Made by a program: the position numbers and the translations under genes. The notes below the pieces were generated by a model that saw only the letters and a list, made by a program, of their open reading frames with translations, was not told the origin of the DNA and searched no databases. From a virus: a DNA stretch of 52,237 nt. This document shows positions 12,927 through 40,378 of the stretch, in pieces. Within the stretch, counting starts at the first letter, position 1. The number at the start of each line of letters is the position of its first letter. Location: positions 1 to 52,237 of IMG/VR virus record IMGVR_UViG_3300037184_000106; one strand, 5' to 3'.

Positions 12927-13802
12927 ATGAAGAAACTTAAACATTCCAAATTTAAGAACGCTGGTATCCTCTTCGAGCTACTCGTTCGCCAAGTAACAGC
13001 TGATATTCTTAACGGATCAGAGGATTCTAAAGCGAATACCATACTACGAACATTTTTCTCCGAAGCCACCGAGTTAGGCAAGGAGAACAGGATGTATAGA
13101 ATAATACTTGAAGATAAAGTAAAAGATCAGAATTCAGCTGACCGTTTGCTTGAAAGTATTATCAAAGCTAGACAAAAACTGAATGAAGCTTCTTTAAGTC
13201 AACAGAAATACGATCTTATAAAAGAGATCAAAAATAGTTATCCAATTGAGGACTTCTTGAAAGGAAGTATTTCAAACTATAAACTATTAGCTTCAATTTA
13301 TAAAATTTTTGAAGAAGCGGTTCATTCTGTCGAATGTGATCCAAGAGAACTTTTTAAGGCCAAGAGTTGTATTGTTGAGAGTATGGTTGTTAGTAAAACA
13401 CCCACACGTCTTATTACTGAGGAAGAGAAACAAAATTTAATCAAGGTATATCAACAACAGAATGAAGATGTTAGATTACTTGCATATAAATTATTGGTCG
13501 ATTCGTTTAACGAAAAGTATGCTGGATTAGATGATAAACAAAAAATACTTATCCGAGAATACATTAATAATATCAGTAACACTAATTCTCTCCGTCAATA
13601 TATGAATACCGAGATTCCTGAAGTTCGCAAGCAGATTACGGAATTAAAAACCAAGGTATTAAATGACGTTATCCGTATAAAATTGGATGAAACTATAAAT
13701 CAACTGGACAAGATTTCTAGAGGGACGTTAGTTAAAGAAAATCAGGTTATGGCGCTTCTATTGTCTTATGAACTGATTAAGGAATTGAAGGAAATCAAAT
13801 AA
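12927..13802 (+). CDS. Conserved helical protein between portal and protease
   Basis: The 291-aa product begins MKKLKHSKFKNAGILFELL. The ATG at 12927 is chosen because a TATTTATA element (12907-12914) and the conserved-looking N-terminus both support it over an upstream in-frame TTG. It is mostly alpha-helical and charged, without cysteine clusters or catalytic motifs. I recall proteins with this kind of start in marine T4-like phages at the same place, between gp20 and gp21, so a head-assembly role is likely by context only. It overlaps the next gene by one base (TAATG). Confidence 0.7.
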   Translation: MKKLKHSKFKNAGILFELLVRQVTADILNGSEDSKANTILRTFFSEATELGKENRMYRIILEDKVKDQNSADRLLESIIKARQKLNEASLSQQKYDLIKEIKNSYPIEDFLKGSISNYKLLASIYKIFEEAVHSVECDPRELFKAKSCIVESMVVSKTPTRLITEEEKQNLIKVYQQQNEDVRLLAYKLLVDSFNEKYAGLDDKQKILIREYINNISNTNSLRQYMNTEIPEVRKQITELKTKVLNDVIRIKLDETINQLDKISRGTLVKENQVMALLLSYELIKELKEIK

Positions 13803-14302
13803 TGTCCAAAGATAATGCCAGACAACTTTTAAGAGAACTTGTCCAAGAAGTATTGGACGAAATGACCGCAACGGGTGCCGTTCAAGGATATGCAACTCCT
13901 TTTGCTTTCCGTGGACATAAAAGTAAGAAAGCAGCTGCTGAACGTTCAATGCCCGGTGGAAAAGTTGTTGGAAGTGAAGATGAAGCAGATGATACTACGG
14001 TAGGAGAATCTAATGGAAATCTTGGGGTCATTCGCCACGGAGGAAAAATAGCAGAGAGTCGATATAGTAACTTTAAACACAGTGATTTGATGAAAAATCA
14101 CGCTAAAATTTCCTATGGTGTTAAAGAAGCTAAAAAAATTCTACGAGAAATAGATTTTTTAGTTGATATCTGTGGACGTTTGAAAAGCGAATGTGGTGTA
14201 GATAATGATCAACTTTGGAAAAGCACCAAACCCGATCTCATTCGTATTAATCGATATCTTAAAGAAATAGCTAGGAAGATCAATCGTATCGGAAAGCAAT
14301 AA
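13802..14302 (+). CDS. Prohead-region protein with capsid-targeting-like N-terminus
   Basis: This is a 166-aa basic protein of unknown function. Its first 20 residues form an amphipathic helix with repeated (L/V)xE steps (LRE at 10-12, VQE at 14-16, LDE at 18-20), like the tag shared by many proteins in this window. The middle is low-complexity and the C-terminal third is helical (YGVKEAKKILREIDFLVDI). It is coupled to the preceding gene by TAATG and followed two bases later by the next. It is probably an internal or core head protein processed by the prohead protease (inference). Confidence 0.6.
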   Translation: MSKDNARQLLRELVQEVLDEMTATGAVQGYATPFAFRGHKSKKAAAERSMPGGKVVGSEDEADDTTVGESNGNLGVIRHGGKIAESRYSNFKHSDLMKNHAKISYGVKEAKKILREIDFLVDICGRLKSECGVDNDQLWKSTKPDLIRINRYLKEIARKINRIGKQ

Positions 14303-14304
14303 TC

Positions 14305-14889
14305 ATGAAATTAATTACAATTTACAAGTCAATCATTAATGAAGATTCTTGGGGAAACAATCCATCATCAGGTGGTTCAGCCGCTCCCGGAAAAACTCCT
14401 AATGCAACTTCTCCCGCTGCACCAGCCGCTGCTCAAGCAAATGTTAAAATGTATGATGTATTGAAGGATTATCAGACGCTTGAATCAACTATTGAAAAAG
14501 AAGAAGAACAGGCGAAAAAGACCCTGAAGACTTCAGTAGCCCAGCAAGTAGGAAACAAGAAAGTTCAGGCTCGCGCTTCCAAAGGAGCAGTTGGTCAAGT
14601 AGAAAAAGACTATACTATAGATGTAGTAGATGTTGATGTATCTTACCAGAGTGAGAAATTTTATATTATTCTAAAAGGTAAGGATAAGAAGGATTATTAT
14701 ATTAACACCGGATTCAAGATTAAAGTTTTAGGTGCTGCAACGAATACCAATCCAACAAAGGAGACTCCTGCCGAGGAACCTCCAACCGCTCCAACCGCTC
14801 CAAATGCTACCGGTAGAAATCTTGGAATAAAATATCCCCAAAATATGGGTGTATCCACTAATAAGCCAAACACTGTAGGAACTCCATGA
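14305..14889 (+). CDS. Pro/Ala-rich head-region protein with targeting-like N-terminus
   Basis: The 194-aa product begins MKLITIYKSIINE, an amphipathic peptide ending in I11-N-E13, a gp21-type cleavage pattern. Two Ala/Pro/Thr-rich linkers flank a small central domain (about residues 45-140) with beta segments such as YQSEKFYIILKGKDKKDYYI. No known domain is recognised. The last bases overlap the protease start (ATGA), so the two are co-translated. Context suggests a prohead core or internal protein. Confidence 0.6.
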   Translation: MKLITIYKSIINEDSWGNNPSSGGSAAPGKTPNATSPAAPAAAQANVKMYDVLKDYQTLESTIEKEEEQAKKTLKTSVAQQVGNKKVQARASKGAVGQVEKDYTIDVVDVDVSYQSEKFYIILKGKDKKDYYINTGFKIKVLGAATNTNPTKETPAEEPPTAPTAPNATGRNLGIKYPQNMGVSTNKPNTVGTP

Positions 14890-15524
14890 GCAATACAAAA
14901 GACACACGACAACTATTAATTGACTGTATTATGTTTGATATCACGCCTCAAATGATTAATGAGGCCAGAACGAATGATGGAAACAAACCATTCACTCTAA
15001 AAGGTATTTTACAGAAATCAGGTCAAAAGAATCACAACGGTCGGGTATATCCCGATGCTGTATTACGTCGTGAAATAGAAAAGTATCAGGAAGTTATTAA
15101 AGAACAAAGAGCAACTGGAGAATTAGATCATCCAGAAGAAGCGGTTATTAATCTCAAGAACGTTTCTCATAAAATAATCGAATGCCATTGGGAAGGAAGT
15201 GATGTAGTCGGAACATTGGAAGTTCTTAGCACACCAAACGGTAATATTGTTCGTGATCTTATAAAAGGAAACGTTCGTATTGGTATTTCTAGTCGTGGTT
15301 TAGGAACGGTTCGTCCAATCGACGAAAGTACGGTAGAAGTTCAGGATGACTTTGAACTACTTTGCTTTGATCTCGTTTCTTCTCCTTCAACACGTGGTGC
15401 GTTCATGTCACTTAATGAAAGTATAAATCACGGTAAGAAGAACGTTATTGTAGAAGGAAAAGCCATTGACAAATATATGAAGATTGAAGGTATCATTCAT
15501 GATATTCTTTCGGAGACCCGGTAA
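14886..15524 (+). CDS. gp21: Prohead core protease (gp21-like)
   Basis: The 212-aa serine protease should process scaffold, capsid and internal proteins during head maturation. Family segments are clear: LKGILQKSGQKNHNGRVYP near 38-56, GELDHP with candidate catalytic His82, and IGISSRGLGT with candidate Ser135/136, then FDLVSSPSTRGAFM. T4 gp21 cleaves after (L/I)xE; this protein itself has an INE-A sequence near residue 26 that could be self-cleaved. It overlaps the preceding gene by four bases and precedes scaffold and capsid genes as in T4. Confidence 0.92.
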   Translation: MSNTKDTRQLLIDCIMFDITPQMINEARTNDGNKPFTLKGILQKSGQKNHNGRVYPDAVLRREIEKYQEVIKEQRATGELDHPEEAVINLKNVSHKIIECHWEGSDVVGTLEVLSTPNGNIVRDLIKGNVRIGISSRGLGTVRPIDESTVEVQDDFELLCFDLVSSPSTRGAFMSLNESINHGKKNVIVEGKAIDKYMKIEGIIHDILSETR

Positions 15525-15541
15525 AATTATCTGAGAATGAC

Positions 15542-15820
15542 ATGAACGGTCCCAAAAGATTAATAATTAATGGTAAACAAGTAGATTCTAGATCTATAGA
15601 GATAGATGGAATAGATCAAAGAGATTACCCAGATTTTTCGGATGCTTATATATCTTATGCTGAATTTGTTGACGGTACGGCGTTGAATGATTTGGAATTA
15701 GATAAATTGAATAATCAAGAAGGAGAATTAGTTAATAATCTCGCCCATGATAGGTCTATTCGAGAGGTTATAAGAAATACTGTCAAAGAAGTCTTAAAAG
15801 AAAGCGGTTTAACAAAGTAG
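15542..15820 (+). CDS. Small conserved acidic head-region protein
   Basis: The product has 92 aa. The N-terminal part (GKQVDSRSIEIDGIDQRDYP, then FSDAYISYAEFVDGTALND) resembles a small protein I recall from T4-like phages, of unknown function. The C-terminus ends in an amphipathic helix (IREVIRNTVKEVLKESG) similar in pattern to the N-terminal tags of neighbouring proteins, but here at the other end. It lies 17 bases after the protease gene. No enzymatic residues are evident. Confidence 0.6.
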   Translation: MNGPKRLIINGKQVDSRSIEIDGIDQRDYPDFSDAYISYAEFVDGTALNDLELDKLNNQEGELVNNLAHDRSIREVIRNTVKEVLKESGLTK

Positions 15821-15824
15821 GATA

Positions 15825-15832
15825 TATTTATA
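15825..15832 (+). promoter_or_regulatory. TATTTATA late-type element, 3 bases from ATG
   Basis: Exact octamer; spacer CAC then ATG 15836. There is no room for a ribosome-binding site, so any transcript started here would be leaderless. Confidence 0.55.
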
Positions 15833-15835
15833 CAC

Positions 15836-16558
15836 ATGAGCAAACCAATCGGAAATCTATTTCTAAAGCAAATCTTGGCAGACATTTCTAGTCATGCCAA
15901 TGAAGGCAGGTTAACTGTTATCACTGAAGGTAAGAAGCATAAGAAAATCGTTCGTGAAGCTAATCCTGTTCCACCAAAGGAAGACGAAGAGAAACCAGAG
16001 GACGATCAGACAACCGGTGCTCAAGGACCGAATGGTTCTGCTCCCGTTCCTGCGCCCGCCGCTCCAGCCAATGCTGATAAAGGTGCCTCTGATATTGGTC
16101 AAGAAAAAGCTCCAGCTGCATCTCAAGAAGCTCCATCAGAAGCTCCTTCGACCCCTGCTGAAGAAGAACCAGCTGGTGAAGATTCCGAACAAGCTCAAGC
16201 TGATGCTGCTGCTTCTAAAGCAGAATTAGAAAAAGCTAAAGCGGAAAAAGACCAAGCGGAAAAAGAAATAAAGAAACAATCTTATGTGCATCTAGTATCT
16301 CCAACCGGAGTATTCTTTCTCTTACAAAAATTAGTAGATCATGCATTCAAAACCAATACAATTGATAGTTTGGCCGCAGAGATGGCACAGAAATTGAAAA
16401 TTGCTAATCAAGAAGATTTTTCTAATTTCTCGGAAGAGATGATTCCATACAAAGCAATTCCCGGTGTAGCTGAATTGTTGGTGTCCATCAGGGGCATGGC
16501 TGCATCGCAACCAAATCCAGAAACTGATGATACGACTTCAAGAGAAGAAAATACCTAA
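15836..16558 (+). CDS. Prohead core-like protein with low-complexity middle
   Basis: The 240-aa product has three parts. The N-terminus is helical (MSKPIGNLFLKQILADI), with later (I/V)xE sites (ITE, VRE) that could be cleaved by the prohead protease. The middle is a long Ala/Pro/Glu segment ending in a Lys/Glu coiled coil. The C-terminal domain is globular and helical, starting YVHLVSPTGVFFLLQKLV. It is unrecognised but sits in the protease-scaffold block. A TATTTATA octamer (15825-15832) ends just three bases before the ATG and no Shine-Dalgarno site is visible. Confidence 0.6.
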   Translation: MSKPIGNLFLKQILADISSHANEGRLTVITEGKKHKKIVREANPVPPKEDEEKPEDDQTTGAQGPNGSAPVPAPAAPANADKGASDIGQEKAPAASQEAPSEAPSTPAEEEPAGEDSEQAQADAAASKAELEKAKAEKDQAEKEIKKQSYVHLVSPTGVFFLLQKLVDHAFKTNTIDSLAAEMAQKLKIANQEDFSNFSEEMIPYKAIPGVAELLVSIRGMAASQPNPETDDTTSREENT

Positions 16559-16564
16559 GACAAC

Positions 16565-16572
16565 TATTTATA
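16565..16572 (+). promoter_or_regulatory. TATTTATA late-type element, 3 bases from ATG
   Basis: Exact octamer; spacer CTT then ATG 16576, in the 17-base gap between two head-region genes. Confidence 0.55.
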
Positions 16573-16575
16573 CTT

Positions 16576-17001
16576 ATGCAATCTCTAAAATTAAGAAGCT
16601 TACTTGAGGGTTTTAGCTCTCAGAAAAAAGAATGGCCGAAGGAAGAAAAGAAAGCCGCATTGGAGGCCATTGGCCGGTATAATGAATATGGCAATCATCT
16701 TCGTCGTGAACACAATTTAATGGAAATTGCCCACACGCTTTCCAACATTACAGAAGCCGCCGAAAAATTCACGTTGTCTGAAACCGAGGGTTCTTTCGAT
16801 TCAGCAACGGTAAAGAAAAATATTTTAGAACTTCGTAAGATCAGTGATCAATTCGGAAAATTGGCACAAGAAGCTCATGTCACACAACAAAGAATGGAAG
16901 CGTTGTATGAGGATGGTGGACACATATTGAATAGATATTTTGAAATTAAAGATTTAGATGAGGGTGTAGCAGCAGCTGTATCCAAAATCAAAGTTTCATA
17001 A
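16576..17001 (+). CDS. Helical head-region protein with targeting-like N-terminus
   Basis: This is a 141-aa, almost entirely helical, charged protein. It starts MQSLKLRSLLEG, where L9-L-E11 fits the T4 prohead protease rule. The rest includes HNLMEIAHTLSNITEAAEKF and KKNILELRKISDQFGKLAQE, which look like antiparallel helices. No known domain. TATTTATA at 16565-16572 is three bases upstream of the ATG, with no visible ribosome-binding site. Its place between core-like genes and the scaffold suggests an internal or core head protein. Confidence 0.6.
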   Translation: MQSLKLRSLLEGFSSQKKEWPKEEKKAALEAIGRYNEYGNHLRREHNLMEIAHTLSNITEAAEKFTLSETEGSFDSATVKKNILELRKISDQFGKLAQEAHVTQQRMEALYEDGGHILNRYFEIKDLDEGVAAAVSKIKVS

Positions 17002-17068
17002 AATAATAAGAAAAAGTAATATTTCTGTCGTTTTTCATAAATACACAACTACTTATTATTACAAAAAT

Positions 17069-17086
17069 GCATTAATCTTTTAATGC
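17069..17086 (+). other. Hairpin in the scaffold-gene leader
   Basis: Inverted repeat GCATTAA / TTAATGC with a four-base loop, in the roughly 145-base gap before the gp22-like gene. GTTTC/GAAAC repeats at about 17091-17126 could form competing stems nearby. There is no T-run, so a leader structure is more likely than a terminator. Confidence 0.4.
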
Positions 17087-17146
17087 GAATGTTTCCAAAC
17101 CTCATTTGAAACTTCAATAGTTTCACAATTAACAAGGACTTAAACT

Positions 17147-18589
17147 ATGTCAGATCTATTGAAACAAGCCATTGCCGACGCGAAAGCAGTTCGTGCAACA
17201 GCACTCGCAAATGCCAAGGCCGCTTTGGAAGAACATTTCGCACCAAAATTACAGAGCATGCTTGCTACCAGACTTCAACAAGAAGTCGAAGGTGATGAAG
17301 AAGCTCCAGAAGAATTCGGCGCACCCGGAGCTGCACCTGAAGGTGCTCCTGCTCCAGAAGAGAACCCACTCGGAGGGACTGATGAAGTTCCTGTAGCAGA
17401 CGCTCCTGCTGTTCCAGAGGCACCTGTTGGTGAACCAACCGATGTTCCAGCCGATGTTCCACCTCAACAGGACGTAGTTCCTGCTCCAGCTGAAGAGGGT
17501 ATTCCTCCAGTGGGTGAAGAAGGTGAAGATTTTGCAAGAGAAATGGAAGAAGAACTACTTGGTCAAGGAAATCCGAATCCACCAGAAATGACGGATCGTT
17601 TGACCGAAACCGAGAAGGCTTCTCCAGATTATAAGAAAACCACTTCTGGACACAAGACCGAAGATCCCGGTAAGCAAATGATTAAGCCAAAAGGTTCTGC
17701 TCTAAATGGTACTCCCGGTGGACCAAAAGAAGGTCCAGCAGAACGTACTGCAAATTCTAATTATAAGACCGGAGAAACCGGCAAACGTCCCGGTAAGATT
17801 ACAAATATTAAATCCGGTGGAACAGAAGATCCACAAGGTGCAAGTGAAGAACTAGCTGATGGTCCTAAGAAGGATCAGACTAAAGACACTGACAAGAAGC
17901 TCGAAGAGAGCGAAATGGAAGATGTCAATGATGAAACACTTGATGAAATCTTGAAGGAACTCGACGCCGAGGCTAATGGAGGTACATCAGCACCAGTTGC
18001 TCCAACCGCTTCAGCAGATGATCAAGAGGTCAATCTTGCTGAACTATTCGAGTCCGATGATGAAGACAAGAAAGAAGATAAGAAGGACGACGAGGATAAG
18101 GACGAAGACAAGGAAGAGAAGAAAGACGGAAAGAAACTTCCACCTTGGCTCCAGAAAGAAAATATTTCGTTGAAGAAGGAACTACAAGAATACCGCAGCA
18201 CCGTACAATATCTGCGGGACCGAATCAATGAAGTCAACCTGCTTAATGCAAAGTTGCTGTATACGAACAAATTGTTCAAACAGGCCAACTTGACCAACGA
18301 GCAGAAACTCAAAGTAATTGAGTCATTCGATCTTACGAAGTCGGTTCGTGAAGCTCGGCTCATTTATGCTACGCTGACCGAATCCTTTAATTTCGGTGGG
18401 AAGAAAGCTGCATCAGCACCAACTACCAAGAAGGTTGCCGCACTGAAAACCATCACCGAAGGTTTGGCATCGAAGTCGATTGCATCAACTAAGCCGACAG
18501 CCAGTGTATTGAACGAGGGATCAGAAATGGCAAATCGTTTCAAGAAATTGGCCGGTATTCGTGCCCCCATCGTGGCACAAAAGAAGTAA
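17147..18589 (+). CDS. gp22: Scaffold / prohead core protein (gp22-like)
   Basis: The 480-aa acidic protein lies immediately before the capsid gene, the gp22 position. Residues 1-45 form a helix. A long Pro/Ala/Glu/Gly-rich low-complexity segment follows, with a Lys/Asp/Glu run near 305-328. A clear coiled-coil region follows (NISLKKELQEYRSTVQYLRD and onward, about 342-385), then a C-terminal tail with ITEG and RFKKLAGIRAP. Scaffold proteins are degraded by the prohead protease; several (L/I)xE sites are present. A good AAGGA site and a roughly 145-base structured leader precede it. It is longer than T4 gp22 (about 270 aa). Confidence 0.8.
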   Translation: MSDLLKQAIADAKAVRATALANAKAALEEHFAPKLQSMLATRLQQEVEGDEEAPEEFGAPGAAPEGAPAPEENPLGGTDEVPVADAPAVPEAPVGEPTDVPADVPPQQDVVPAPAEEGIPPVGEEGEDFAREMEEELLGQGNPNPPEMTDRLTETEKASPDYKKTTSGHKTEDPGKQMIKPKGSALNGTPGGPKEGPAERTANSNYKTGETGKRPGKITNIKSGGTEDPQGASEELADGPKKDQTKDTDKKLEESEMEDVNDETLDEILKELDAEANGGTSAPVAPTASADDQEVNLAELFESDDEDKKEDKKDDEDKDEDKEEKKDGKKLPPWLQKENISLKKELQEYRSTVQYLRDRINEVNLLNAKLLYTNKLFKQANLTNEQKLKVIESFDLTKSVREARLIYATLTESFNFGGKKAASAPTTKKVAALKTITEGLASKSIASTKPTASVLNEGSEMANRFKKLAGIRAPIVAQKK

Positions 18590-18630
18590 GTTAACCAAAT
18601 TCAACACTCTTAAAAGGAGAAAAATAAACT

Positions 18631-20235
18631 ATGTCAGCAGATATCAAACAACTACTCAGCGAGACCATGAATCCCATGGTCCAGCTCATGGCCCAAACTC
18701 GCGGCCTTGTAAATAAATGGGATAAGACTGGATTGCTTGAAGGCATCAAGACCGATATGGAAAAATCCCATATGGCCATTTTGCTTGAAAACCAAGCAAA
18801 GCAGTTAATCGACGAAGCTACCCGTACAGGTACTTCTGCAAATTCCGAACAATGGGCCGGTGTGGCACTCCCACTCGTCCGTCGTGTGTTCGCCGAAATT
18901 GCTGCTAAGGAGTTCGTATCCGTGCAGCCAATGAACCTTCCATCAGGTCTCGTGTTCTATCTAGACTTCAAATATGGAACAAATCAAGCGGGCAAACCTG
19001 CTTTCTTGAACCAGTCCCTCTTCGGTGGTACTGGCACAAAGCTCGGTTCAACTGACTCAGCCGTTAATGGTTTGTATGGTCAGGGTCGTTTCGGTTATAC
19101 TATCAATGATCAGACGTTGGCTGGTGCAGCGTCTGTCACATCTGTCGCTTCATGGCAGGCAGCAAACTTCGTGGACGCTCTTTCGGGTTCCGCAGACGCA
19201 GGTCAACTGTTCTACTTGTCTGTGGACTTGACTGGTACAAGCTTCGATTTCAATGGTGTTCGCGCCTTCACGGTGTCGGGCTCCGGTATCGTTGACTTCT
19301 ATCCAGCATTCACGACCACAGCTGGTCAGTCAGTAACATTCATCGTTTCGGGTTCGGCTTTGTCCAATCCAACGGTCACGGTTGAATATCAAGTTCAGCC
19401 TTCCGATCAGTCACGTGGTGACTTCGAAGATAAGGGTTCTCCAATTCCTCCACAGGGATTGAATGCTGATATCGGTATCCCCGAAATCAACTTGGAACTC
19501 AAGAGCGAAGCAATCGTTGCGAAGACCAAGAAGCTCAAGGCCGTCTGGACTCCAGAATTGGCACAAGACTTGAACGCATATCACTCAATCGACGCAGAAG
19601 CGGAATTGACTGCATTGCTCTCGGAATACGTTTCAATGGAAATCGACCTCGAAATCCTTGACATGTTGATCGTCAATGCCCCACAGGCAACAACTGAATT
19701 CTGGTCTGCACGTATTGGATCTGAATTTAATCCACAACTCGGAAAATTCGTTGATACGGCAACAAACCGTACAGCTTATGTTAAGAGCACGTGGTTCCAA
19801 ACTCTCGGCAACAAGATCCAAAAGGTCTCGAACAAGATTCACCAGTTGACACTGCGTGGTGGTGCAAACTTCCTCGTTGTATCTCCTGACGTTGCTACCA
19901 TCATCGAATCCATCCCCGGTTTCACGACCAACACAGATGGTGATATGGCAAAGTTTGCAATGGGTGTCGCAAAGGTCGGAGCCCTCTCCAACCGTTGGAC
20001 GGTTTACAAGAACCCATACATGACGGACAACGTAATGCTCGTCGGATTCCGTGGAACAAACTTCCTCGAAACCGGTGCAGTGTACGCTCCATATATTCCT
20101 CTCATCCAGACTCCTCTGGTATACGATCCCGTGAACTTCACGCCACGGCGTGGTGTCATGACTCGTTACGCCAAGAAGATGCTCCGTCCGGAATTCTACG
20201 GAAAGATCATCATCGGCAATCTGAACGAGGTATAA
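18631..20235 (+). CDS. gp23: Major capsid protein (gp23-like)
   Basis: The 534-aa capsid subunit begins MSADIKQLLSETMNPMVQLM and contains WAGVALPLVRRVFAE and FVSVQPMNLPSGLVFYLDF, hallmarks of gp23. The propeptide is probably removed after E62 (QLIDE-A63), matching the (L/I)xE rule and close to the T4 position (after Glu65). It has the strongest Shine-Dalgarno in the window (AAAAGGAG) and noticeably more C-ending codons than its neighbours, consistent with very high expression. A strong rho-independent terminator follows at 20279. Confidence 0.96.
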   Translation: MSADIKQLLSETMNPMVQLMAQTRGLVNKWDKTGLLEGIKTDMEKSHMAILLENQAKQLIDEATRTGTSANSEQWAGVALPLVRRVFAEIAAKEFVSVQPMNLPSGLVFYLDFKYGTNQAGKPAFLNQSLFGGTGTKLGSTDSAVNGLYGQGRFGYTINDQTLAGAASVTSVASWQAANFVDALSGSADAGQLFYLSVDLTGTSFDFNGVRAFTVSGSGIVDFYPAFTTTAGQSVTFIVSGSALSNPTVTVEYQVQPSDQSRGDFEDKGSPIPPQGLNADIGIPEINLELKSEAIVAKTKKLKAVWTPELAQDLNAYHSIDAEAELTALLSEYVSMEIDLEILDMLIVNAPQATTEFWSARIGSEFNPQLGKFVDTATNRTAYVKSTWFQTLGNKIQKVSNKIHQLTLRGGANFLVVSPDVATIIESIPGFTTNTDGDMAKFAMGVAKVGALSNRWTVYKNPYMTDNVMLVGFRGTNFLETGAVYAPYIPLIQTPLVYDPVNFTPRRGVMTRYAKKMLRPEFYGKIIIGNLNEV

Positions 20236-20278
20236 GAAATCCTTCTCGGCAACGAGATTTAAACAGTTACATTAAGTT

Positions 20279-20307: not shown

Positions 20308-20346
20308 GTATAAACTGTAGGTACATTATAATCTATCACTATAAAC

Positions 20347-20622: not shown

Positions 20623-20629
20623 ATTCTAC

Positions 20630-21545: not shown

Positions 21546-22199
21546 TTAAGACGCACTTTTAAATACTTTTGCATTCCATTCCATGCGTTTCTTTATTCCT
21601 CGATTATTTGTACTTCTATATTCTCTATTATTCAGATATTCATCTGCGGCTTCTTTAAATTTATGTTGTGCTAGAAACATTTCTGTCTTAGGACCGAGAT
21701 CTCCACGAAATAATGAATTCAAAACTGCAATCTTTACCGTCATCGGTAATATATCAAAGTTCTTTATTTTAGACTTTATCCTATTTATTTTAAGTTGAAT
21801 ATCTTTATGCAGTAAATCATCGGCTTCAGAATCAGTTATTCCTTCATTAAAATTTTCTCCGGGAAGCATTTTATGTCCATAAGCTATTGTCGGTGTTCCA
21901 CCTTCAAGACTTTTGTGAGGAAACCATCTTTTCTTAGTCTTATCATAACCTCCCCGCACGTTCGACGGATTGTTCTCAAATTGTTTTATGACTTTTGATG
22001 CCTTATCTACGATATTTGAGTCACTGTCTCCAGCATTAAAATCTACATTACCCTGATAATACTGCGCTCCAGCCGCATCAGACGCTGGTTTGGCGTATGC
22101 GTGCCACGCAGGCTTGTTTAAAAAGCTTATAGTTGGAGGAGGTACATCGACTGCCTCTGATAGTAATTGCTTAGATATAAGTGACTTTAATTTGATCAT
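21546..22199 (-). CDS. GH24-type lysozyme with N-terminal targeting-like extension
   Basis: The 217-aa muramidase should cut peptidoglycan. The T4-lysozyme-like core starts near residue 65: catalytic-type Glu75 in IKQFENN, the TPTIAYGH turn at 102-109, the DSEADDLLHKDI helix, and the helix MTVKIAVLNSLFRGDLGP. The extra N-terminal 60 residues include MIKLKSLISKQLLSEA, where L13-S-E15/A16 fits prohead-protease processing; other proteins here share this tag. No signal peptide is seen. It could be the endolysin or a virion-packaged lysozyme. A TATAAATA (TATTTATA on the minus strand) lies 7 bases before its ATG. Confidence 0.78.
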   Translation of the reverse strand: MIKLKSLISKQLLSEAVDVPPPTISFLNKPAWHAYAKPASDAAGAQYYQGNVDFNAGDSDSNIVDKASKVIKQFENNPSNVRGGYDKTKKRWFPHKSLEGGTPTIAYGHKMLPGENFNEGITDSEADDLLHKDIQLKINRIKSKIKNFDILPMTVKIAVLNSLFRGDLGPKTEMFLAQHKFKEAADEYLNNREYRSTNNRGIKKRMEWNAKVFKSAS

Positions 22200-23487: not shown

Positions 23488-24903
23488 ATGAAACTTATCC
23501 AGATCATACGAAATATCATTTTAGAGAACGATGACGAAGGTGGATCGCTCGAAGTAGACAAGAAGATGACCGAAAAAACCCTTGACGATACTTTTAATCT
23601 CAATGATAGAGGACTTGATTATGTTAAAACTCAGTTGGAAAAACTTAATAAGAAGGCCAGTCGCATAGGAGTTCCTCCTCTTGAATTAAAGATATTGAAC
23701 GAAAAGTTCGTTAAAGTTACTCATGAAGATTTTCCAAATGGCTTCATGATGATAAAATACTATACGGTTAAAATAGAAGGAAAATCACCGATTATTGACG
23801 GATATGAATTCATTGCCAGTATTGAACATAGCTCCGCAGGGAACATTATAAATATATCTCCCAATGCAAGTGTAAGAGATCTTCCTCCGGAATACAGAAC
23901 GTCTAACACCGATTGCGATTATTGTCATACCAAACGTGATCGATTGAATACGTTTGTTTTGATGAAGACAGATACCAAAGAATTCAAGAAGGTCGGTCGA
24001 TCATGTTTGAAGAACTTTCTTCCCGGAAAAGATCCACAGTCAATTCTCGTTTGGGCAGCAATACTCAGTAGAATGTTGAATAGCCTTATAGGTGGAGAAG
24101 AAATGGAATATGAAGATCGAGATGGACGTGGAGGAGGTGGAGGATGGGGGAAATATTACGATGCCGAAACATATTTCAAGTACATGTGTTTAGCTTATTA
24201 CTTGAACGGAGAAAGATTTACTTCCGGTAAGGTTGCTCGTGAACATGAAGGAATGGTATCAACAGCAAATTTTGCGATGAATTTGATGAATATCAGTCGC
24301 CAGCCCGAGGACTTTAAGAAGGATTACCGAGAGAAAATTGCATCAAATATGCCAAAAGCAGAAGCTTTAGCCAAGAAAGTGGAAGAGTGGAAAGACACCA
24401 AGGATTGGGACGCCGAGATGGAAAAGAAACCGGATATGGCAAACTATTTCCACAATATGAAAGTGCTTTCTAATTCAGAAGCTATTCAATTTAAAAACGC
24501 CGGATATCATGCTTCTTTACTAGGTGTTTATCTCCGAGAGAAGGAATGGGGAGACAAACAGACGGTTGCTAAAGAAAAGGCAAAAACCAAATCTTACATT
24601 GGAAAGATAGGCGATAAGATCACATTCACCGGAGTATTAAAGAAATATACGTCATGGGAGTCTCAATATGGGTGGACACATCTATATAAGTTCTTGGAAG
24701 ATAATACAGAAAATGAAGTAATATACTTCTCAACCAGAGATCTTAACCTAGAAGAAGGAAACCGGTATAAAGTCAAGGCAACAGTCAAGAATCAACAGCC
24801 TTCGAAATATACCGGGGCTCCTGAAACAATTATTACACGTGGCAAGGTTGAACCGGCTGAAGGTACTGTATCGGCTCCTGTTGCCCCTATATCTCCACAA
24901 TAG
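23488..24903 (+). CDS. Zn-finger / OB-fold-like protein with targeting-like N-terminus
   Basis: The 471-aa product starts MKLIQIIRNIILEND, with I11-L-E13 as a possible prohead-protease site. The ATG at 23488 is chosen because TATTTATA ends three bases before it. A conserved-looking segment holds C143-x2-C146 and VGRSCLKNFLPG (C173), resembling a phage family I recall with CxxC and GxxCLxDF motifs. A Gly-rich loop (GRGGGGGWG) follows near residue 225. The C-terminal region (IGDKITFTGVLKKYTSWES and onward) looks like an OB-fold nucleic-acid-binding domain. Function unknown; packaged DNA- or RNA-binding protein is inference. Confidence 0.6.
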   Translation: MKLIQIIRNIILENDDEGGSLEVDKKMTEKTLDDTFNLNDRGLDYVKTQLEKLNKKASRIGVPPLELKILNEKFVKVTHEDFPNGFMMIKYYTVKIEGKSPIIDGYEFIASIEHSSAGNIINISPNASVRDLPPEYRTSNTDCDYCHTKRDRLNTFVLMKTDTKEFKKVGRSCLKNFLPGKDPQSILVWAAILSRMLNSLIGGEEMEYEDRDGRGGGGGWGKYYDAETYFKYMCLAYYLNGERFTSGKVAREHEGMVSTANFAMNLMNISRQPEDFKKDYREKIASNMPKAEALAKKVEEWKDTKDWDAEMEKKPDMANYFHNMKVLSNSEAIQFKNAGYHASLLGVYLREKEWGDKQTVAKEKAKTKSYIGKIGDKITFTGVLKKYTSWESQYGWTHLYKFLEDNTENEVIYFSTRDLNLEEGNRYKVKATVKNQQPSKYTGAPETIITRGKVEPAEGTVSAPVAPISPQ

Positions 24904-24968: not shown

Positions 24969-25835
24969 ATGTCCATACAGGAAATAATTTCACATAGAAG
25001 CAAAAGATTCTCGGAAGTGTTATCTTATACATATACTATTACTAGAAAGAGTGATGGACAGCAGTATCATGGAGTAAGATACAAAAATGTGAAAGATGGA
25101 ATTTCTCCAGCAGAAGATCTTGGAAAAAGATATTTTACATCAGGAGTATTTAAATCAGATTTTAAATTAGATCCCAATGATTTTGAGGTAAAACTAAGAT
25201 GGACATTCGATAATATAGAAGATGATTTATTATGGGAATCTAGGGTAAATAGTCGGATTATACATAGAGAGACATGGGCCAATATAGCGGTTGGAAAAGG
25301 ATGTAGAGACATTGAAAAATTAAAGGTGAGACGTGAAGAAGCATGTGTTAAAAAGTATGGTGTTCCACATAATATGATGGTTAGAGAAATAAGAGATAAG
25401 AGAGACGAAACATTAGTTAGATTATTTGGAACTAAAAATATTTCTTCTTTGGATATTATAAAAGATAAAGTAAAACAAACATGTTTAAGAAAATTTGGAA
25501 CGGAATATTCATTTCAATCACCTTCGGTCAAGTCAAAAATAAAGAAATCTTTAATAGAAAGATATGGAGTTAGTAATCCAGCATTATGTCCTGCTATATC
25601 AAAAAAGAAAATGGATTCTAATATTAAAAAGTATGGAATGCATTATTTTAAAACAAAGGAATTTCTTGAATTAAATAAAATTAAAAGGGACGATATGTAT
25701 ATTAAATTAGCTAAAATGGATATAATATCTTTTACTCAATATTTATCGACGTTGTCTCAACATAAATCGATTCAAAATCAAAAGAAAACTCAACGAGAGA
25801 TTGGTGTAAAATTATTGGAGACTATAAATGCCTAA
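24969..25835 (+). CDS. GIY-YIG-like homing endonuclease with KYGV repeats
   Basis: The 288-aa product has an N-terminal degenerate GIY-YIG-type segment (YTYTITRKSDGQQYHGVRY, then GKRYFTSGVFK) as found in phage homing nucleases. At least five DNA-binding-type repeats follow, of the form (K/R)(Y/F)G(V/T)xxxxx, for example CVKKYGVPHNMM, CLRKFGTEYSF and LIERYGVSNPAL. It is more AT-rich and lysine-rich than its neighbours, consistent with mobility. It overlaps the following neck-gene start by eight bases. TATTTATA is three bases before its ATG. Some GIY-YIG catalytic residues look substituted, so activity is uncertain. Confidence 0.65.
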   Translation: MSIQEIISHRSKRFSEVLSYTYTITRKSDGQQYHGVRYKNVKDGISPAEDLGKRYFTSGVFKSDFKLDPNDFEVKLRWTFDNIEDDLLWESRVNSRIIHRETWANIAVGKGCRDIEKLKVRREEACVKKYGVPHNMMVREIRDKRDETLVRLFGTKNISSLDIIKDKVKQTCLRKFGTEYSFQSPSVKSKIKKSLIERYGVSNPALCPAISKKKMDSNIKKYGMHYFKTKEFLELNKIKRDDMYIKLAKMDIISFTQYLSTLSQHKSIQNQKKTQREIGVKLLETINA

Positions 25836-27448: not shown

Positions 27449-27912
27449 AAGGACGATATTTTTCACAGCGGGATTTGAATTTCGTTAATTCGGTGAACGG
27501 TGAACTTATGGGAGACATTATTGAGGATCTTGTGTTGGTCTTCAAAATATCTCCCATTGAAACCGAGACCAACATCTACGGAGAAACTTCGGATAAAACA
27601 GGTAAGTGGTATCTACCGGGAATAGAAATATCGTCTCTTACAGATCGTCCAGAAATGACAGCTGAGTATGATGACTTTGGACCATCTCGTAGCCAGACCC
27701 ATATATTTAAATTCCGTGAAAAAATGTGTAGAATGCTCAACTTCTATCCAGAAATCGGAGACATCGTATTCTGGAATGACCGTTATTATGAAATAGATAA
27801 TGTAGTTCAAGAACAGTTACTGGGAGGTATTGCTGAGAAGAGTCATTCAGTTATTTGCAATTCTCACTACACTCGTATTACTTCTCTAAACGTTGTGGAG
27901 CGAAATTCATGA
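27439..27912 (+). CDS. Probable neck protein (gp14-like)
   Basis: The 157-aa product contains RDLNFVNSVNGELMGDIIED and VLVFKISPIETETNIYGE, which I associate with the gp14 neck protein group in marine T4-like phages, then FRFREKMCRML-type and GDIVFWNDRYYEID strands. This fits a head-tail connector, but T4 gp14 itself is longer and similarity cannot be computed here. It overlaps the upstream nuclease gene by 10 bases and the downstream gene by four (ATGA). Confidence 0.5.
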   Translation: MGLKGRYFSQRDLNFVNSVNGELMGDIIEDLVLVFKISPIETETNIYGETSDKTGKWYLPGIEISSLTDRPEMTAEYDDFGPSRSQTHIFKFREKMCRMLNFYPEIGDIVFWNDRYYEIDNVVQEQLLGGIAEKSHSVICNSHYTRITSLNVVERNS

Positions 27913-29069
27913 GTATAATTAAACTAAAATATTTGGTTAAAGAAATAGTCGAAGGAACGACATCGCTTCCTGACGGACTACCTTCTAAATGTATCATATC
28001 ACTTGAGGATTTTCTGATGGGTGTAAATGAATCCGATTTACTTGGATCTAAGAATACTCCTATATCCCCAGACGATCTACATTCATATTTAGGTAGAGTA
28101 AAGAATAAACAGACGGTTCCAACTGACAAATATAAGTTTCCATTTATCCATGCATCGAATATTCCTATTACCGACGAAAATGGAAATACATATGATTTAG
28201 AAGCATTGAAAAAAGACATAACAACAAGACCCGATCACATTCTGAAGCAGAATGCTAAATCTGAACTTACCGGTGGAGGAAAGAAGTTACAGTTGGAAAT
28301 AGGTCTCCCGGCTTTATTAGGTCTGGGGGTAAATGAAAAAACGAGCGAGTTCGTAATTGTTAACACTTGTCCGGGTGCGGGATCATGTAAAATAAATTGT
28401 TACGCCAAAGGAGGGAGCTATATAATGTTCCAACGAAGCCAGTTGAATCAGACTCGTATGCTTAATTTTGTATTGAACGATCCCGACGGGTTTGTGTTTA
28501 AGCTGTCTGAAGAAATAACTGCCCAAACAAAAAAGCTTTCTAAACAGGGAAAAACTCTTATAGTTAGATGGCATGACTCCGGAGATTTCTTCAGTCCCGA
28601 TTATTTAGATATTGCCCGTAAAGTAGCCAATAAGTTCCCGGAAGTAGAATTTATTGCATATACTAAGATGGCCTATGCCATGGGAGATAACCCACCTAAT
28701 TTAATGACTACATTTTCACATGGAGCAACTCCAGATCAAGAGAATAAAATAGATTTTGATACGTCCAAGCAGGCTATAGTTGTTCCATTGATTATGTTCA
28801 AAGACCTTGTTCACATGGCAAAGAATGGAAGACCTAAGAAAGATGAAAATGAAAAGATTCAATTCAACTCAAAAGAATCTTTTGATGAGTTAAGAAAGAG
28901 AGTCAGTGACAAATACCATATAGAATATGATACCATACTCTCATATGATGAACTAATGAAATCACCAGTTGAGAAGAAGAAGACATTTAATGTAATTGTT
29001 GTATCAGGAGATGGTGACGATGCGGCAAGTCGTCCAGACGTTCTTGGGATATATTTATTGGAACACTAA
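27909..29069 (+). CDS. GP88-family-like protein with cysteine motif and targeting-like N-terminus
   Basis: The 386-aa product begins MSIIKLKYLVKEIVEG, with I13-V-E15/G16 as a possible prohead-protease site. The central NTCPGAGSCKINCYAKGGSY (C154, C160, C164) and the following VRWHDSGDFFSPDYLDIA and FIAYTKM segments match my recollection of the phage GP88 domain, first noted in mycobacteriophages, whose function is unknown. The three cysteines could bind an iron-sulfur cluster or zinc (inference). The start at 27909 overlaps the previous stop (ATGA); upstream in-frame codons are not supported. Confidence 0.6.
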   Translation: MSIIKLKYLVKEIVEGTTSLPDGLPSKCIISLEDFLMGVNESDLLGSKNTPISPDDLHSYLGRVKNKQTVPTDKYKFPFIHASNIPITDENGNTYDLEALKKDITTRPDHILKQNAKSELTGGGKKLQLEIGLPALLGLGVNEKTSEFVIVNTCPGAGSCKINCYAKGGSYIMFQRSQLNQTRMLNFVLNDPDGFVFKLSEEITAQTKKLSKQGKTLIVRWHDSGDFFSPDYLDIARKVANKFPEVEFIAYTKMAYAMGDNPPNLMTTFSHGATPDQENKIDFDTSKQAIVVPLIMFKDLVHMAKNGRPKKDENEKIQFNSKESFDELRKRVSDKYHIEYDTILSYDELMKSPVEKKKTFNVIVVSGDGDDAASRPDVLGIYLLEH

Positions 29070-29074: not shown

Positions 29075-29377
29075 ATGAAAAAATCAGAATTAAAACAACT
29101 CATTCGTGAAGTCGTGGAAGAGCTTAAGGAAGAATGGAGCCGAGTATCCGAAGAATTCAACCGCAGATTAGATGGATTGAACGATCAGCAGAAAAGAGAT
29201 AATGGAATCGTTATTAGCATGATTTCAGATTTTGTAGATGAACTTAAACGAGAAGGATCATATAATGTCCGTGCTGCGAACGATCTTCGTCAATCGCTTA
29301 GAACGCATCAAATTGACTCCGGGTTATTCGATGATGCAATGGAATCGTCTGGAATTAATGATGATGTTGATATTTAA
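29075..29377 (+). CDS. Small helical protein with targeting-like N-terminus
   Basis: The 100-aa acidic helical product begins MKKSELKQLIREVVEELKEE, which contains I10-R-E12 and L17-K-E19 and matches the amphipathic tag pattern seen elsewhere in this window. The rest (residues 40-100) has short helices ending in an acidic tail. No known domain. It lies six bases after the GP88-like gene and six before the gp15-like gene, so it belongs to the late structural transcript. Confidence 0.55.
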   Translation: MKKSELKQLIREVVEELKEEWSRVSEEFNRRLDGLNDQQKRDNGIVISMISDFVDELKREGSYNVRAANDLRQSLRTHQIDSGLFDDAMESSGINDDVDI

Positions 29378-33879: not shown

Positions 33880-33915
33880 CTAATACTTATAACCAGAACC
33901 TAAATAACTTTTACT

Positions 33916-34551: not shown

Positions 34552-34560
34552 TATTATACA

Positions 34561-35199
34561 ATGATCATTCAGAATCAAGTTGGCACAAACGCAATTGTAA
34601 ATTCTCTTCCCCCCGGTTCTACCATTGTGGGAAGAGCAGGTGGATTAGGAGAAGGAATTGGTTCTGTCCAATCTCCTAATTACTACGAATCCGTATACAG
34701 AAAAGCTTCGTTTTTTACTTGTAACTCAGTACCAACGCAGGTAACAGGGGGATTAACTTCCTCATACTCTGGATTAGCGATTTCAAATCCTCCGGGATCA
34801 ACTATTAACGCAGTGCTTCAAAATATAGGATACTCTTTTCCATCGGCTTCTTTCACCGGTAGTGCGGCTGTGATAGGACTTATGGTTGGATATAATGCTA
34901 CGGCCCCTATCACAAACAGCGTTGCGTCTACCATTAGAAACAGTTTTGTCAACGGTCCTGTGGGTCAAGTAATCGGTTCAACTAGTTGCACATTTCCTAA
35001 CACTCCGGTTCTTACCAAAGTATTTGGAAAAATTGATACAGGGTCGATTACAGTTTCAACTCAGGCTCCTATGGGATTTGCGGAATTAAAAGGAACCCTC
35101 ATTCTTCCTCCCGGAGCATATGCCGCAATTTATTCATCAATATCTTCGTCAAACGCCGTATTGCTCGGTTCGTTTGATTGGCAAGAGATTCCTATTTAA
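34561..35199 (+). CDS. Tandem-duplicated structural protein, copy 2
   Basis: The 212-aa paralogue of the preceding gene begins nine bases after its stop: MIIQNQVG at the start, SPNYYESVYRKASF, LPPGAYAAIYSS and LLGSFDWQEIPI at the end. The two copies have the same length and architecture but many substitutions, so the duplication is old enough for functional divergence, for example two related surface subunits. A stem-loop with a T-rich tail follows at 35206-35245. Confidence 0.65.
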   Translation: MIIQNQVGTNAIVNSLPPGSTIVGRAGGLGEGIGSVQSPNYYESVYRKASFFTCNSVPTQVTGGLTSSYSGLAISNPPGSTINAVLQNIGYSFPSASFTGSAAVIGLMVGYNATAPITNSVASTIRNSFVNGPVGQVIGSTSCTFPNTPVLTKVFGKIDTGSITVSTQAPMGFAELKGTLILPPGAYAAIYSSISSSNAVLLGSFDWQEIPI

Positions 35200-35205
35200 A
35201 TTTAT

Positions 35206-35245
35206 TATTATTTAGACAAACGTGTCTAATAATAGTGTTTTTGTC
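35206..35245 (+). terminator. Probable terminator after the duplicated structural pair
   Basis: TAGACA-AACG-TGTCTA stem extended by A/T pairs across one bulge, followed by a T-rich stretch (GTTTTTGTCTTTC). Confidence 0.6.
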
Positions 35246-35271
35246 TTTCTCAGTTCTATATATATGGTATT

Positions 35272-35568
35272 ATGGAACAATCTACGATAAAAGAAACACT
35301 TCCTACAACGTTGACACCAACTAAGTTCACTGTTGATGAACAGGGAGAAATTAAAAGTATTCGAGATGGATTTGACCGTGCAACGGTAACATTTGGAAAT
35401 CTATATCTTCAGAAATTAGATTTAGAGAAGCACGAAAAACAATTACAGAAGGAATTTGAACTTCTTCAAAGTCAAGAAAAAGCTTTTCTTGACAAGATAG
35501 TTGCTAAGTACGGAGAAGGAACATACGATCAATCAACTGGAGTATTTACTTCAAGAAAAAAATCTTGA
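35272..35568 (+). CDS. Small coiled-coil protein upstream of sheath
   Basis: The 98-aa product has a Thr/Pro-rich start, a short TKFTVDEQGEIKSIRDGFD segment and a helical heptad-like stretch (LDLEKHEKQLQKEFELLQSQ) before a basic end. I recall similar small proteins near tail genes of T4-like phages, without known function. No ribosome-binding site is evident; it lies downstream of a hairpin terminator, which suggests its own promoter in the AT-rich 35240-35271 stretch. Confidence 0.55.
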   Translation: MEQSTIKETLPTTLTPTKFTVDEQGEIKSIRDGFDRATVTFGNLYLQKLDLEKHEKQLQKEFELLQSQEKAFLDKIVAKYGEGTYDQSTGVFTSRKKS

Positions 35569-35611
35569 TCGACTTTTTCTTACATTTTAGTGGTTTTGAT
35601 CTTTTGAACAA

Positions 35612-35619
35612 TATTTATA
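35612..35619 (+). promoter_or_regulatory. TATTTATA late-type element before tail sheath
   Basis: Exact octamer 42 bases before the sheath ATG. Here the leader is long enough to include the strong TAGGAGA ribosome-binding site. Confidence 0.6.
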
Positions 35620-35661
35620 CATAGACTTTTCATCTCTTCAATTTTATAGGAGAAAACACAT

Positions 35662-38646: not shown

Positions 38647-38664
38647 TCTAAACTCTCCTCTGAA

Positions 38665-38695
38665 AGTCCGTCCCTTCTGGGACGGATTTTTTTTT
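38665..38695 (+). terminator. Rho-independent terminator after tail sheath gene
   Basis: About ten base pairs (AGTCCGTCCC / GGGACGGATT with one G-T pair), TTCT loop and a run of nine T. Confidence 0.9.
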
Positions 38696-38758
38696 GCTCT
38701 TATTTATGTGTTTGATATTTCTACTTACTATTTATCTAGTAGGATTTTAATAATACAC

Positions 38759-39745
38759 ATGAAAAACACAGAATCATTTCGATATAAACATTATTTAAGA
38801 GTCATGAAACGTTTAACTATGGGAGGAGTTATTCCAGCATTCAATTTCGAAAATTACACCGGAACTAAAAATGTTGAATATAAATTTAAATGTATTTCTT
38901 GTGATTTTGAATTTTCTGGTACTCTCGATAATGGCCACACACCATTATGTCCGAAATGTCATCCGAATAGATTGACTATAAATCTTGGCCATCCAGACAC
39001 CATAGTCAAAAAATGTGAAGAATGTAATAAATATTTTTTAGTAATATGGAAAAACCGCAATCAGAGATTTTGTTCAGTATCATGTAAAAGAACCTTTATC
39101 TCAAAGAGTGTCAGAGAAACGGTTAATTGTTTAAATTGTGGAAAACCATTTGTACGACGTAAAAAAGCTGATAGTGGAAGAGAAAACCCAAGACAATATT
39201 GTTCAAATCATTGTTCAGTTATTTCATTAGAGAACCGAAATAAGCGCAGGGAGTGGGGATTATCAGGAAATAACCATTGGAGAAAATCAGAGTGTCAAGC
39301 CAAAGTATCAGAAACAAAATTGAAAAGATACGGAAATAAAAAATATAATAACACTGATAGACAACTAAAAACTATAAAAGATAGATATGGAGTTTATTGT
39401 TCTTTCGATTTACCACAATCAAAATCAGGTGGCCACAGAGTCTCAAAATTTCAAAAAATTACCTATGAGAGAATTTTAAAAGACAATCCAGATGCACTCT
39501 TAGAAGAATATCTTAGCGACGTAGAAAGATCGGTTGATATCTATATTCCTTCTAAAAAACACATCGTTGAGTGCAACGGAGATTATTGGCATTGCAATCC
39601 AAAAATTTACGGTCCAGATTACTATAACAAATTAGTCCACTTGACGGCGCAAGAAATATGGGACAAGGACGAAGAAAAATATAGACAATTACGATCTAAT
39701 GGATATTCTGTTGACATTGTTTGGGAAAACTCCCGAAACCATTAA
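38759..39745 (+). CDS. Zinc-finger, Vsr-like homing endonuclease
   Basis: The 328-aa product starts at ATG 38759; upstream in-frame codons run through the sheath terminator and are rejected. It has several CxxC pairs (CISC, CPKC, CEEC, CLNC, FCSVSC, YCSNHC), a DNA-binding repeat region (KLKRYGNKKYNN, IKDRYGVYCSF) and a C-terminal Vsr/EDxHD-type nuclease core (SVDIYIPSKKHIVECNGDYW, then H, then DEEKYRQLRSNGYSVDIVWE). The architecture matches free-standing homing endonucleases of T4-like phages. It sits directly after the sheath gene, a typical position next to a conserved target. Confidence 0.78.
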   Translation: MKNTESFRYKHYLRVMKRLTMGGVIPAFNFENYTGTKNVEYKFKCISCDFEFSGTLDNGHTPLCPKCHPNRLTINLGHPDTIVKKCEECNKYFLVIWKNRNQRFCSVSCKRTFISKSVRETVNCLNCGKPFVRRKKADSGRENPRQYCSNHCSVISLENRNKRREWGLSGNNHWRKSECQAKVSETKLKRYGNKKYNNTDRQLKTIKDRYGVYCSFDLPQSKSGGHRVSKFQKITYERILKDNPDALLEEYLSDVERSVDIYIPSKKHIVECNGDYWHCNPKIYGPDYYNKLVHLTAQEIWDKDEEKYRQLRSNGYSVDIVWENSRNH

Positions 39746-39753
39746 AACAGTTA

Positions 39754-39761
39754 TATTTATA
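39754..39761 (+). promoter_or_regulatory. TATTTATA late-type element
   Basis: Exact octamer five bases before ATG 39767 of the HAD nucleotidase-like gene. Confidence 0.55.
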
Positions 39762-39766
39762 AGCAT

Positions 39767-40378
39767 ATGCAGATTCTATTACGAGATATACTTTCGGAAA
39801 TTACCTCTACAGAAGATCCGAAAGACACGCCATTAAAAGTTCAAATCTATTGTGATATGGATGGAGTCCTCGTGGACATGGACAAAGGATTCAAGGAGCT
39901 TTCCGGAGGTTATACTGTAGACAATTATGTGGACAAATTTGGTGGTGATCGAAAGATCGCTCAAAAGAATTTTTGGAAACTTATCGGAAGAAAAGCGGAT
40001 TTCTGGAGTTCACTTGATCCAATGCCAGATGCATCGATACTATGGAAGTTTATTACTGACAACTTCAAAGATCCCGTTCCAGTTGTATTGAGTGCCGGTC
40101 AAGGTTCTAAATTAGCACAGCAAAAAACTGAATGGATTCATAGACATTTTGGTCCACATGTTCGCGTAATAATTGCAACTAAAGGAGTAGATAAACCGAA
40201 CTACATTCTTGATAATGGAACTCCAGAAGAAGGACAATATATTACTAATGTTCTAATTGACGACACTCAGAAAAATATCAATGCTTGGGATAGCGAACCA
40301 AAACATAGAATTGCTATATTTCATAAGAATGCTGCTGAAACGATCAAGGCATTACAGCCGTTCATCGATAAACAATAA
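39767..40378 (+). CDS. HAD-family 5'-nucleotidase-like enzyme with targeting-like N-terminus
   Basis: The 203-aa product begins MQILLRDILSEITS, with L9-S-E11 as a possible prohead-protease site, then an HAD phosphatase core: nucleophile motif YCDMDGVLVDMD (D30, D32), a Ser in VVLSAGQGS and NVLIDDTQKNINAW with the acidic motif IV. This resembles deoxyribonucleotidases (NT5C type) that remove 5' phosphates. TATTTATA is five bases before the ATG. It overlaps the following nucleotidyltransferase gene by one base (TAATG), suggesting a functional pair. Confidence 0.75.
   Translation: MQILLRDILSEITSTEDPKDTPLKVQIYCDMDGVLVDMDKGFKELSGGYTVDNYVDKFGGDRKIAQKNFWKLIGRKADFWSSLDPMPDASILWKFITDNFKDPVPVVLSAGQGSKLAQQKTEWIHRHFGPHVRVIIATKGVDKPNYILDNGTPEEGQYITNVLIDDTQKNINAWDSEPKHRIAIFHKNAAETIKALQPFIDKQ

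Follow-up and report, generated by a model that had tools for sequence, protein, structure and literature searches.

The 52,237-base environmental virus record IMGVR_UViG_3300037184_000106, analysed here over its whole length and hereafter called the window, carries a T4-like head gene block, and in and downstream of this block several genes encode proteins that begin with a similar short peptide (Table 1). The peptide, hereafter the tag, is 9-15 residues long and ends in (L/I/V/F)-x-E, as does the capsid-targeting sequence (CTS) of phage T4. All nine N-termini quoted in a first-pass annotation, including MSADIKQLLSE of the capsid protein, were found at the start and on the strand given there, on open reading frames (ORFs) picked independently by a gene caller.

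Table 1 Head genes and tagged N-termini of the window; a slash marks the end of the tag
Feature	Coordinates	Strand	ORF	Matches and orthologs
Terminase	9223			Head block
Portal	10969			phrog_213
Tag MSKDNARQLLRE of head-core-type protein	13802..13837	+	13802-14302	Orthologs MNDAKKIIRELVEEV, MKDTKQIIRELVEEV
Tag MKLITIYKSIINE of head-block protein	14305..14343	+	14305-14889	Orthologs MNLTDIAKKILKE/DTWG, MNLTDIAKKIINE/DSWG, MNLTNIAKKILNE/RQYR; (I/L)xE kept
Prohead protease, gp21-type (S77), presumed processing enzyme	14886..15524	+		phrog_207 head maturation protease, E 2.3e-50
Head-core protein	15836..16558	+		Orthologs start MNNKITNPLLKQLISE/, against LKQILAD in window copy
Tag MQSLKLRSLLE of head-core-type protein	16576..16608	+	16576-17001	Orthologs MKILKLRPLIE/G, MNTLKLRPLIE/N, MNVLKLRNLIE/G
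gp22-like scaffold candidate	17147..18589	+		Immediately 5' of capsid gene; conserved across 77 family members; no match in PHROG search
MSADIKQLLSE, N-terminus of major capsid protein precursor	18631..18663	+	18631-20235	phrog_138, E 2.2e-70; orthologs MSDIKSLLSE/TSNP
Tag MIKLKSLISKQLLSE of T4-lysozyme-fold protein	22155..22199	-	21546-22199
Tag MKLIQIIRNIILE of Zn/OB-type protein	23488..23526	+	23488-24903	Orthologs MKLKEIVDRIYLE/ND, MIKLLEIASQIISE/ED
Tag MSIIKLKYLVKEIVE (Glu12 or Glu15) of GP88-domain protein	27909..27953	+	27909-29069	GP88, PF17338, E 4.9e-29
Tag MKKSELKQLIRE of 100-residue protein	29075..29110	+	29075-29377	Tag type as in relatives' MKKSELKQLIKE and others
Tag MQILLRDILSE of NT5C-type HAD nucleotidase	39767..39799	+	39767-40378	PF06941, E 9.9e-05, slightly under the curated cut-off

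Tagged N-termini in the window

Under a weak rule, (L/I)xE with Glu at residue 11-15, 10 of the 59 window genes match as against 15 of 338 internal positions (p = 0.0014); nine of the matches are the N-termini listed in Table 1 and the tenth (46637) is apparently due to chance. The weak rule was rejected as sole evidence, because 4.4% of internal windows fit it. A strict motif was fixed from the T4 CTS, [ILVMFY]xx[ILVMF][ILVMF]xE with Glu at residue 9-16; as a control, the motif window was also moved to internal positions along those proteins. The strict motif occurs at 7/59 N-termini and 7/338 internal positions of the window (odds ratio 6.4, p = 0.0017), and all seven genes lie between 10.9 and 41 kb, with none among the other 28 genes. 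Two of the listed N-termini (16576 MQSLKLRSLLE and 22199 MIKLKSLISKQLLSE) are missed by it, both having (L/I)xE and both being conserved in orthologs. The window taken alone is modest evidence, and it is the relatives that make the case for the tag overwhelming.

Enrichment of the motif in related phages

By its capsid protein, the nearest named relatives of this virus are Microcystis phage Mel-JY01, Flavobacterium phage immuto and the 484-kb uncultured phage LR756508 (56-58% identity), followed by Rhodothermus phage RM378. The motif was clearly enriched at N-termini of related genomes: across 80 environmental loci with this capsid gene, the strict motif was present at 119 of 1152 N-termini and at 77 of 6934 internal positions (p~1e-52). 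The corresponding counts were 16/207 against 12/1084 in immuto and 55/608 genes against 32/2527 internal positions in the whole of LR756508, a 41-kb part of which had 16/55 against 3/287. The pattern is not equally common among early proteins, because the tags concentrate by region: within 10.9-41 kb in the window, in the virion half of immuto (12/78 genes, against 4/129 below 79 kb) and at 143-340 kb in LR756508 (47/221 genes, against 8/387 elsewhere). A neutral sample of environmental viruses showed the pattern in 2.0% of genes.

Protein bodies were clustered after removal of the first 22 residues; of the 633 families obtained, 76 were mostly tagged, as were 40 of the 2811 control positions (p 4e-30), the bodies being unrelated by BLAST; the same family-level count in the neutral sample gave 17/818. 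These families, together with the retention of the tag by orthologs described below, bear out the earlier claim that unrelated proteins have this N-terminus in common. We also scanned environmental viral contigs at the DNA level for one dialect of the tag, L(K/R)xIIREE, using a pattern free of start codons. Two conserved families were left out, namely the portal and the terminase, the latter having an N-terminal helix that itself fits the pattern. The dialect lay at most 15 residues from the first ATG in 62 of 69 viral ORFs, which fell into 35 body clusters, whereas the figure for bacterial and archaeal genomes was 5/63, and three of those five were phage-like sequence in metagenome bins. The core KLKx(L/I)(L/I/V) occurred 44 times at N-termini and 13 times across 434,706 other positions.

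Two records of the neutral sample are worth describing separately. One (L315) encodes a HAD-like protein starting MLSFKEFLTEAKKKPMVYLDMDGV, so that this enzyme fold bears a T4-like tag in a further lineage, and the other (L355) has four tagged genes within 14 kb.

Glu specificity and association with the prohead protease

The motif with Glu was enriched 9.3-fold and that with Asp at the same place 1.4-fold, and most of the enrichment was gone when Glu was swapped for other residues (Asp, Asn, Lys and so on). Such a preference for Glu is what a protease of the T4 gp21 type would need in order to cleave. Among contigs of at least 40 kb, the S77 protease was detected in 15 of 21 tagged ones and in 4 of 31 from the neutral sample (p 2e-5); among those of at least 100 kb, in 10/10 and 2/7, respectively. 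The T4-like capsid gene was also absent from the six tagged contigs negative for the protease, and for that reason these look like fragments. The protease gene of LR756508.1 (L010:4610-6334) is split by an intein, with Intein_splicing and LAGLIDADG_3 matches inside Peptidase_S77, and a similarly split protease match was seen in a 368-kb record (L166).

Conservation in orthologs and absence from homologs elsewhere

Orthologs of the nucleotidase start MGNLADLLLE, MKKSLKELLNE, MKSLVELLLTE and MQSLLKIYSVIKE, and those of the GP88 protein start MKLIDLLTE, MRIKEFLFE, MKITDLLLE and MKKIELKKIIKE. The lysozyme begins with M..IKLKD(L/I)L in 8/8 orthologs examined, with in-frame starts checked and bodies down to about 27% identity. 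A loss of the tag in three of the lysozyme orthologs was considered and rejected, as their start calls were wrong and M..IKLKD(L/I)L.. was found upstream in all three; since wrong start calls hid tags, the tag counts given here are underestimates. Glu13 is retained in the Zn/OB orthologs, and in the head-block proteins 14305 and 16576 (I/L)xE stays constant across orthologs while the adjacent letters drift.

Five homologs were examined in phages of other kinds. No such tag was found on the GP88 homologs of two Streptomyces phages and one archaeal virus, nor on the NT5C homologs of a Schitoviridae phage and the 44-kb Sinorhizobium phage phiM5, the last of which has an unrelated long N-terminus. 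The tag therefore appears, from these comparisons, to be a detachable extension that is missing from the five homologs examined outside this head system. The alignment of the Zn/OB protein with homologs in large Vibrio and other phages begins only at about residue 32, and in the T4-like Methylophilales phage Melnitz MKSIVEVTSINE precedes the nucleotidase. In a structure model of the lysozyme, residues 1-50, including the tag, are disordered and stand apart from the T4-lysozyme-fold body; the model of the Zn/OB protein was poor (predicted local distance difference test score, pLDDT, 52).

Tagged enzymes and a virion protein of cyanophage S-SM1

Tagged families in the relatives include GP88, NT5C, cytidylyltransferase, PolyA polymerase with HD, amidoligase, ART-PolyVal (an ADP-ribosyltransferase domain), Fic, S-AdoMet lyase, HAD_SAK_1, HD_4, YkuD and lysozyme-like domains, and many other tagged proteins are small and without known domains. 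The cytidylyltransferase of cyanophage S-SM1 (T4-GC190) has a start of the same type, MKKFSAFLNE/A, which is close to the T4 pattern, and it is one of only 2 genes out of 187 in that phage with the strict motif. Its detection in purified virions is described in PMC3037559, in a passage that does not mention the tag. The cytidylyltransferase-domain protein of Mel-JY01, encoded at 11243, carries a tag of another dialect, MGKLINILLSE, and immuto has a tagged NT5C protein at 109856.

LR756508 has a block of tagged paralogs, in which the invariant positions among 17 aligned members are Lys4 and Glu9 of the tag, two Arg and two Pro. The paralogs (L010, L521, L523, L525, L527, L532) have a conserved LYRG ... 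PKR..S.FA ... YG ... EV, and one might guess from this motif a resemblance to the R-S-E layout of ADP-ribosyltransferases, making them motif-level candidates; a profile search of solved structures returned only unrelated helical proteins and no support for an ADP-ribosyltransferase. Other tagged proteins of Mel-JY01 (L006:10276-12715) and LR756508 (L521:13149-14408) continue with RVWHLTT or LLYHVT, with an invariant H-x-T, and are possibly another transferase family.

Other features of the window and of the Mel-JY01 head block

On the minus strand, five tandem genes at 44470-46632 have another common N-terminus, M..(I/F).(V/I)P.HS.VD(V/L)ITNSS(S/T)E, and form a paralogous array; the two of them that were tested had no Pfam match. 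A protein with an RNA ligase domain (47410-48429, minus strand; PF09414, E 8e-11) adjoins an array of small genes. Two DUF7487 proteins (24969-25835 and 49473-51149), possibly homing-type nucleases, lie amid virion and accessory genes. In Mel-JY01, a ribosomal protein S21 gene (L005:22183-22410) is located between the protease and capsid genes, a position reported for other phages as well (PMC9723584).

Discussion

The shared N-terminus is very probably a T4-type CTS that is used in a modular manner. The amphipathic helix of 9-15 residues, ending hydrophobic-hydrophobic-x-Glu, would bind the assembling prohead core, so that any protein bearing it would be enclosed once the capsid shell closes; the gp21-type S77 protease of the phage (14886-15524) would then cut after Glu and free the mature protein inside the head, from which it would exit along with the DNA. 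The first-pass annotation had proposed such a tag on enzymes delivered into the host. Its assignment to the CTS type agrees with the Glu specificity, the tie to the protease and the virion enzyme of S-SM1. The delivery part would hold for only some of the proteins listed there, because 13802, 14305, 16576 and the capsid protein lie in the head-core gene block and are more likely processed head precursors, structural proteins that would share the signal with the cargo. The cargo in the window is likely to be the lysozyme (21546), the Zn/OB protein (23488), the GP88 protein (27909) and the nucleotidase (39767), and we infer that these four are packaged, cleaved and ejected. The 29075 protein is ambiguous between a core part and cargo.

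Several points speak against a CTS on delivered enzymes. Some of the small tagged proteins could be core structure and not cargo. The signal in Mel-JY01 is weak (7/222 against 17/1303, p 0.05), one Zn/OB ortholog (RIYLE) has Tyr where (L/I) is expected, and a 188-kb record (L279) encodes a tagged GP88 protein yet has no detectable S77 protease or T4-like capsid. The motif enrichment and the protease association share the phylogeny of T4-like lineages and hence are not independent of each other. S-PM2 also encodes the cytidylyltransferase, which was not seen in an earlier S-PM2 proteome (PMC3037559). We searched for a virion proteome of this phage or its close relatives and found none, which includes proteomics of Flavobacterium phage immuto; for Sinorhizobium phages phiN3 and phiM9, proteome notes were absent in the first 50 kb of the records.

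It is unlikely that the tag marks structural head-core proteins only, the helix co-assembling with the scaffold and being chopped by gp21 without any delivered cargo, and the enzyme-like bodies happening to act inside heads or during assembly. This would suit the tagged proteins of the head block, including the capsid precursor, and the many small tagged proteins with no known domain, but homologs of the tagged GP88, NT5C, cytidylyltransferase, Fic, S-AdoMet lyase, YkuD, amidoligase, PolyA polymerase/HD and lysozyme-type domains are ordinary enzymes elsewhere, and the S-SM1 cytidylyltransferase is reported from mature virions. We give little credence to a generic amphipathic membrane helix, or a phage-specific localisation signal, whose acidic end comes from a helix-capping preference. 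Although the peptides are N-terminal and amphipathic and T4 proheads leave the membrane once they have matured (PMC9026906), a rule by which Glu is enriched at one register and Asp, Asn, Lys and others far less is not required of a membrane helix, and the tag goes with the S77 protease and is nearly absent at bacterial N-termini. Chance, start-codon context or inheritance in one duplicated gene family, to which the window-only p of just ~0.002 and the preference of AT-rich N-terminal codons for K, I and N would point, is refuted as the sole explanation by the family-level controls, the N-terminal confinement of the KLK core and the scarcity of the pattern in bacteria and neutral viruses, and is hardly credible.

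A CTS in the window and its relatives is best compared with that of T4 itself. IPI, IPII and IPIII, the T4 internal proteins (IPs), and the propeptide of Alt have, like the proteins described here, an N-terminal peptide, of 10-19 residues, with hydrophobic residues at 4, 7 and 8 and Glu at 10. In the T4 CTS, residues 4 and 7 matter for targeting, whereas processing is governed by residues 8 and 10 and inhibited by Asp at 10 (PMC9026906). The T4 CTS is cut by gp21, is modular and works on foreign proteins, and its investigators suggested that T4-like phages may use such sequences to load a variety of proteins (PMC9026906); the window likewise encodes a gp21-type protease. In contrast to T4, the tag letters here form the dialects MKLK.LL.E and MK..(E/Q)L(K/R).IIRE, the cargo includes many enzymes, and there are up to ~50 tagged genes per genome. 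The tagged window proteins have no homology to the IP or Alt families, Pfam scans of them having returned either GP88 or NT5C or no match, and although they may act in the manner of IPs they are not classed as such. The polymorphic internal proteins of T-even phages also have unrelated bodies with the leader alone in common, through which their genes were found (Repoila 1994, cited in PMC12373910), but they are small and come from coliphages, whereas the leader here is found across huge phages and distant T4-like ones that have other hosts.

Two further systems are less close. The capsid targeting signal of P1 DarB resembles the tag in that N-terminal residues suffice to route a foreign protein to the head, but it differs from the (L/I)xE tag, and P1 is apparently without a separate T4-type scaffold (PMC9024508). 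In SPN3US and phiKZ, N-terminal propeptides of ejected proteins are cut after x-x-Glu by a prohead protease (PMC5694885), as would be the case here; those propeptides are, however, mostly longer than 100 residues with A or S three before the cut, and the protease is more distant. A propeptide of the phiKZ/SPN3US type was rejected on these grounds, the tags here being 9-15 residues long with (L/I/V/F)-x-E and not more than 100 residues long with A/S-x-E.

The mechanism is already known, because the work on the T4 CTS established the targeting and processing residues (PMC9026906). What look new are the reach, the cargo and the scale of tag use: in the literature searched, we found no description of the code reaching such distant or giant phages, of dozens of unrelated tagged families, of the statistical tie to the S77 protease or of the tag on a virion-confirmed cyanophage enzyme.

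The cargo list would fit early counter-defence and takeover, since the Alt packaged by T4 is an ADP-ribosyltransferase and T4 IPs block restriction enzymes (PMC9026906, PMC12373910), three of them blocking GmrSD enzymes (PMC12373910). A broader reading, which we put forward tentatively and would narrowly doubt, is that the CTS serves as a general delivery code, blind to protein family and written in a few dialects by phages with an S77 protease that infect many hosts, and that each large phage injects a whole arsenal with it. Such an arsenal would comprise about 50 tagged proteins in LR756508, including the paralog block with ADP-ribosyltransferase-like motifs, and in other phages proteins with S-AdoMet lyase, Fic, amidoligase, cytidylyltransferase and L,D-transpeptidase domains. 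If this is true, the set of proteins ejected by uncultured phages would be readable straight from the sequence. If the CTS assignment itself is right, a rule of ten residues would identify what environmental and giant phages send into the cell ahead of expressing any of their genes. It is among these proteins, most of them called 'hypothetical protein' today, that one expects fast functions in anti-restriction and host takeover, and their tags would provide natural, host-diverse versions of the protein-delivery signal of T4.

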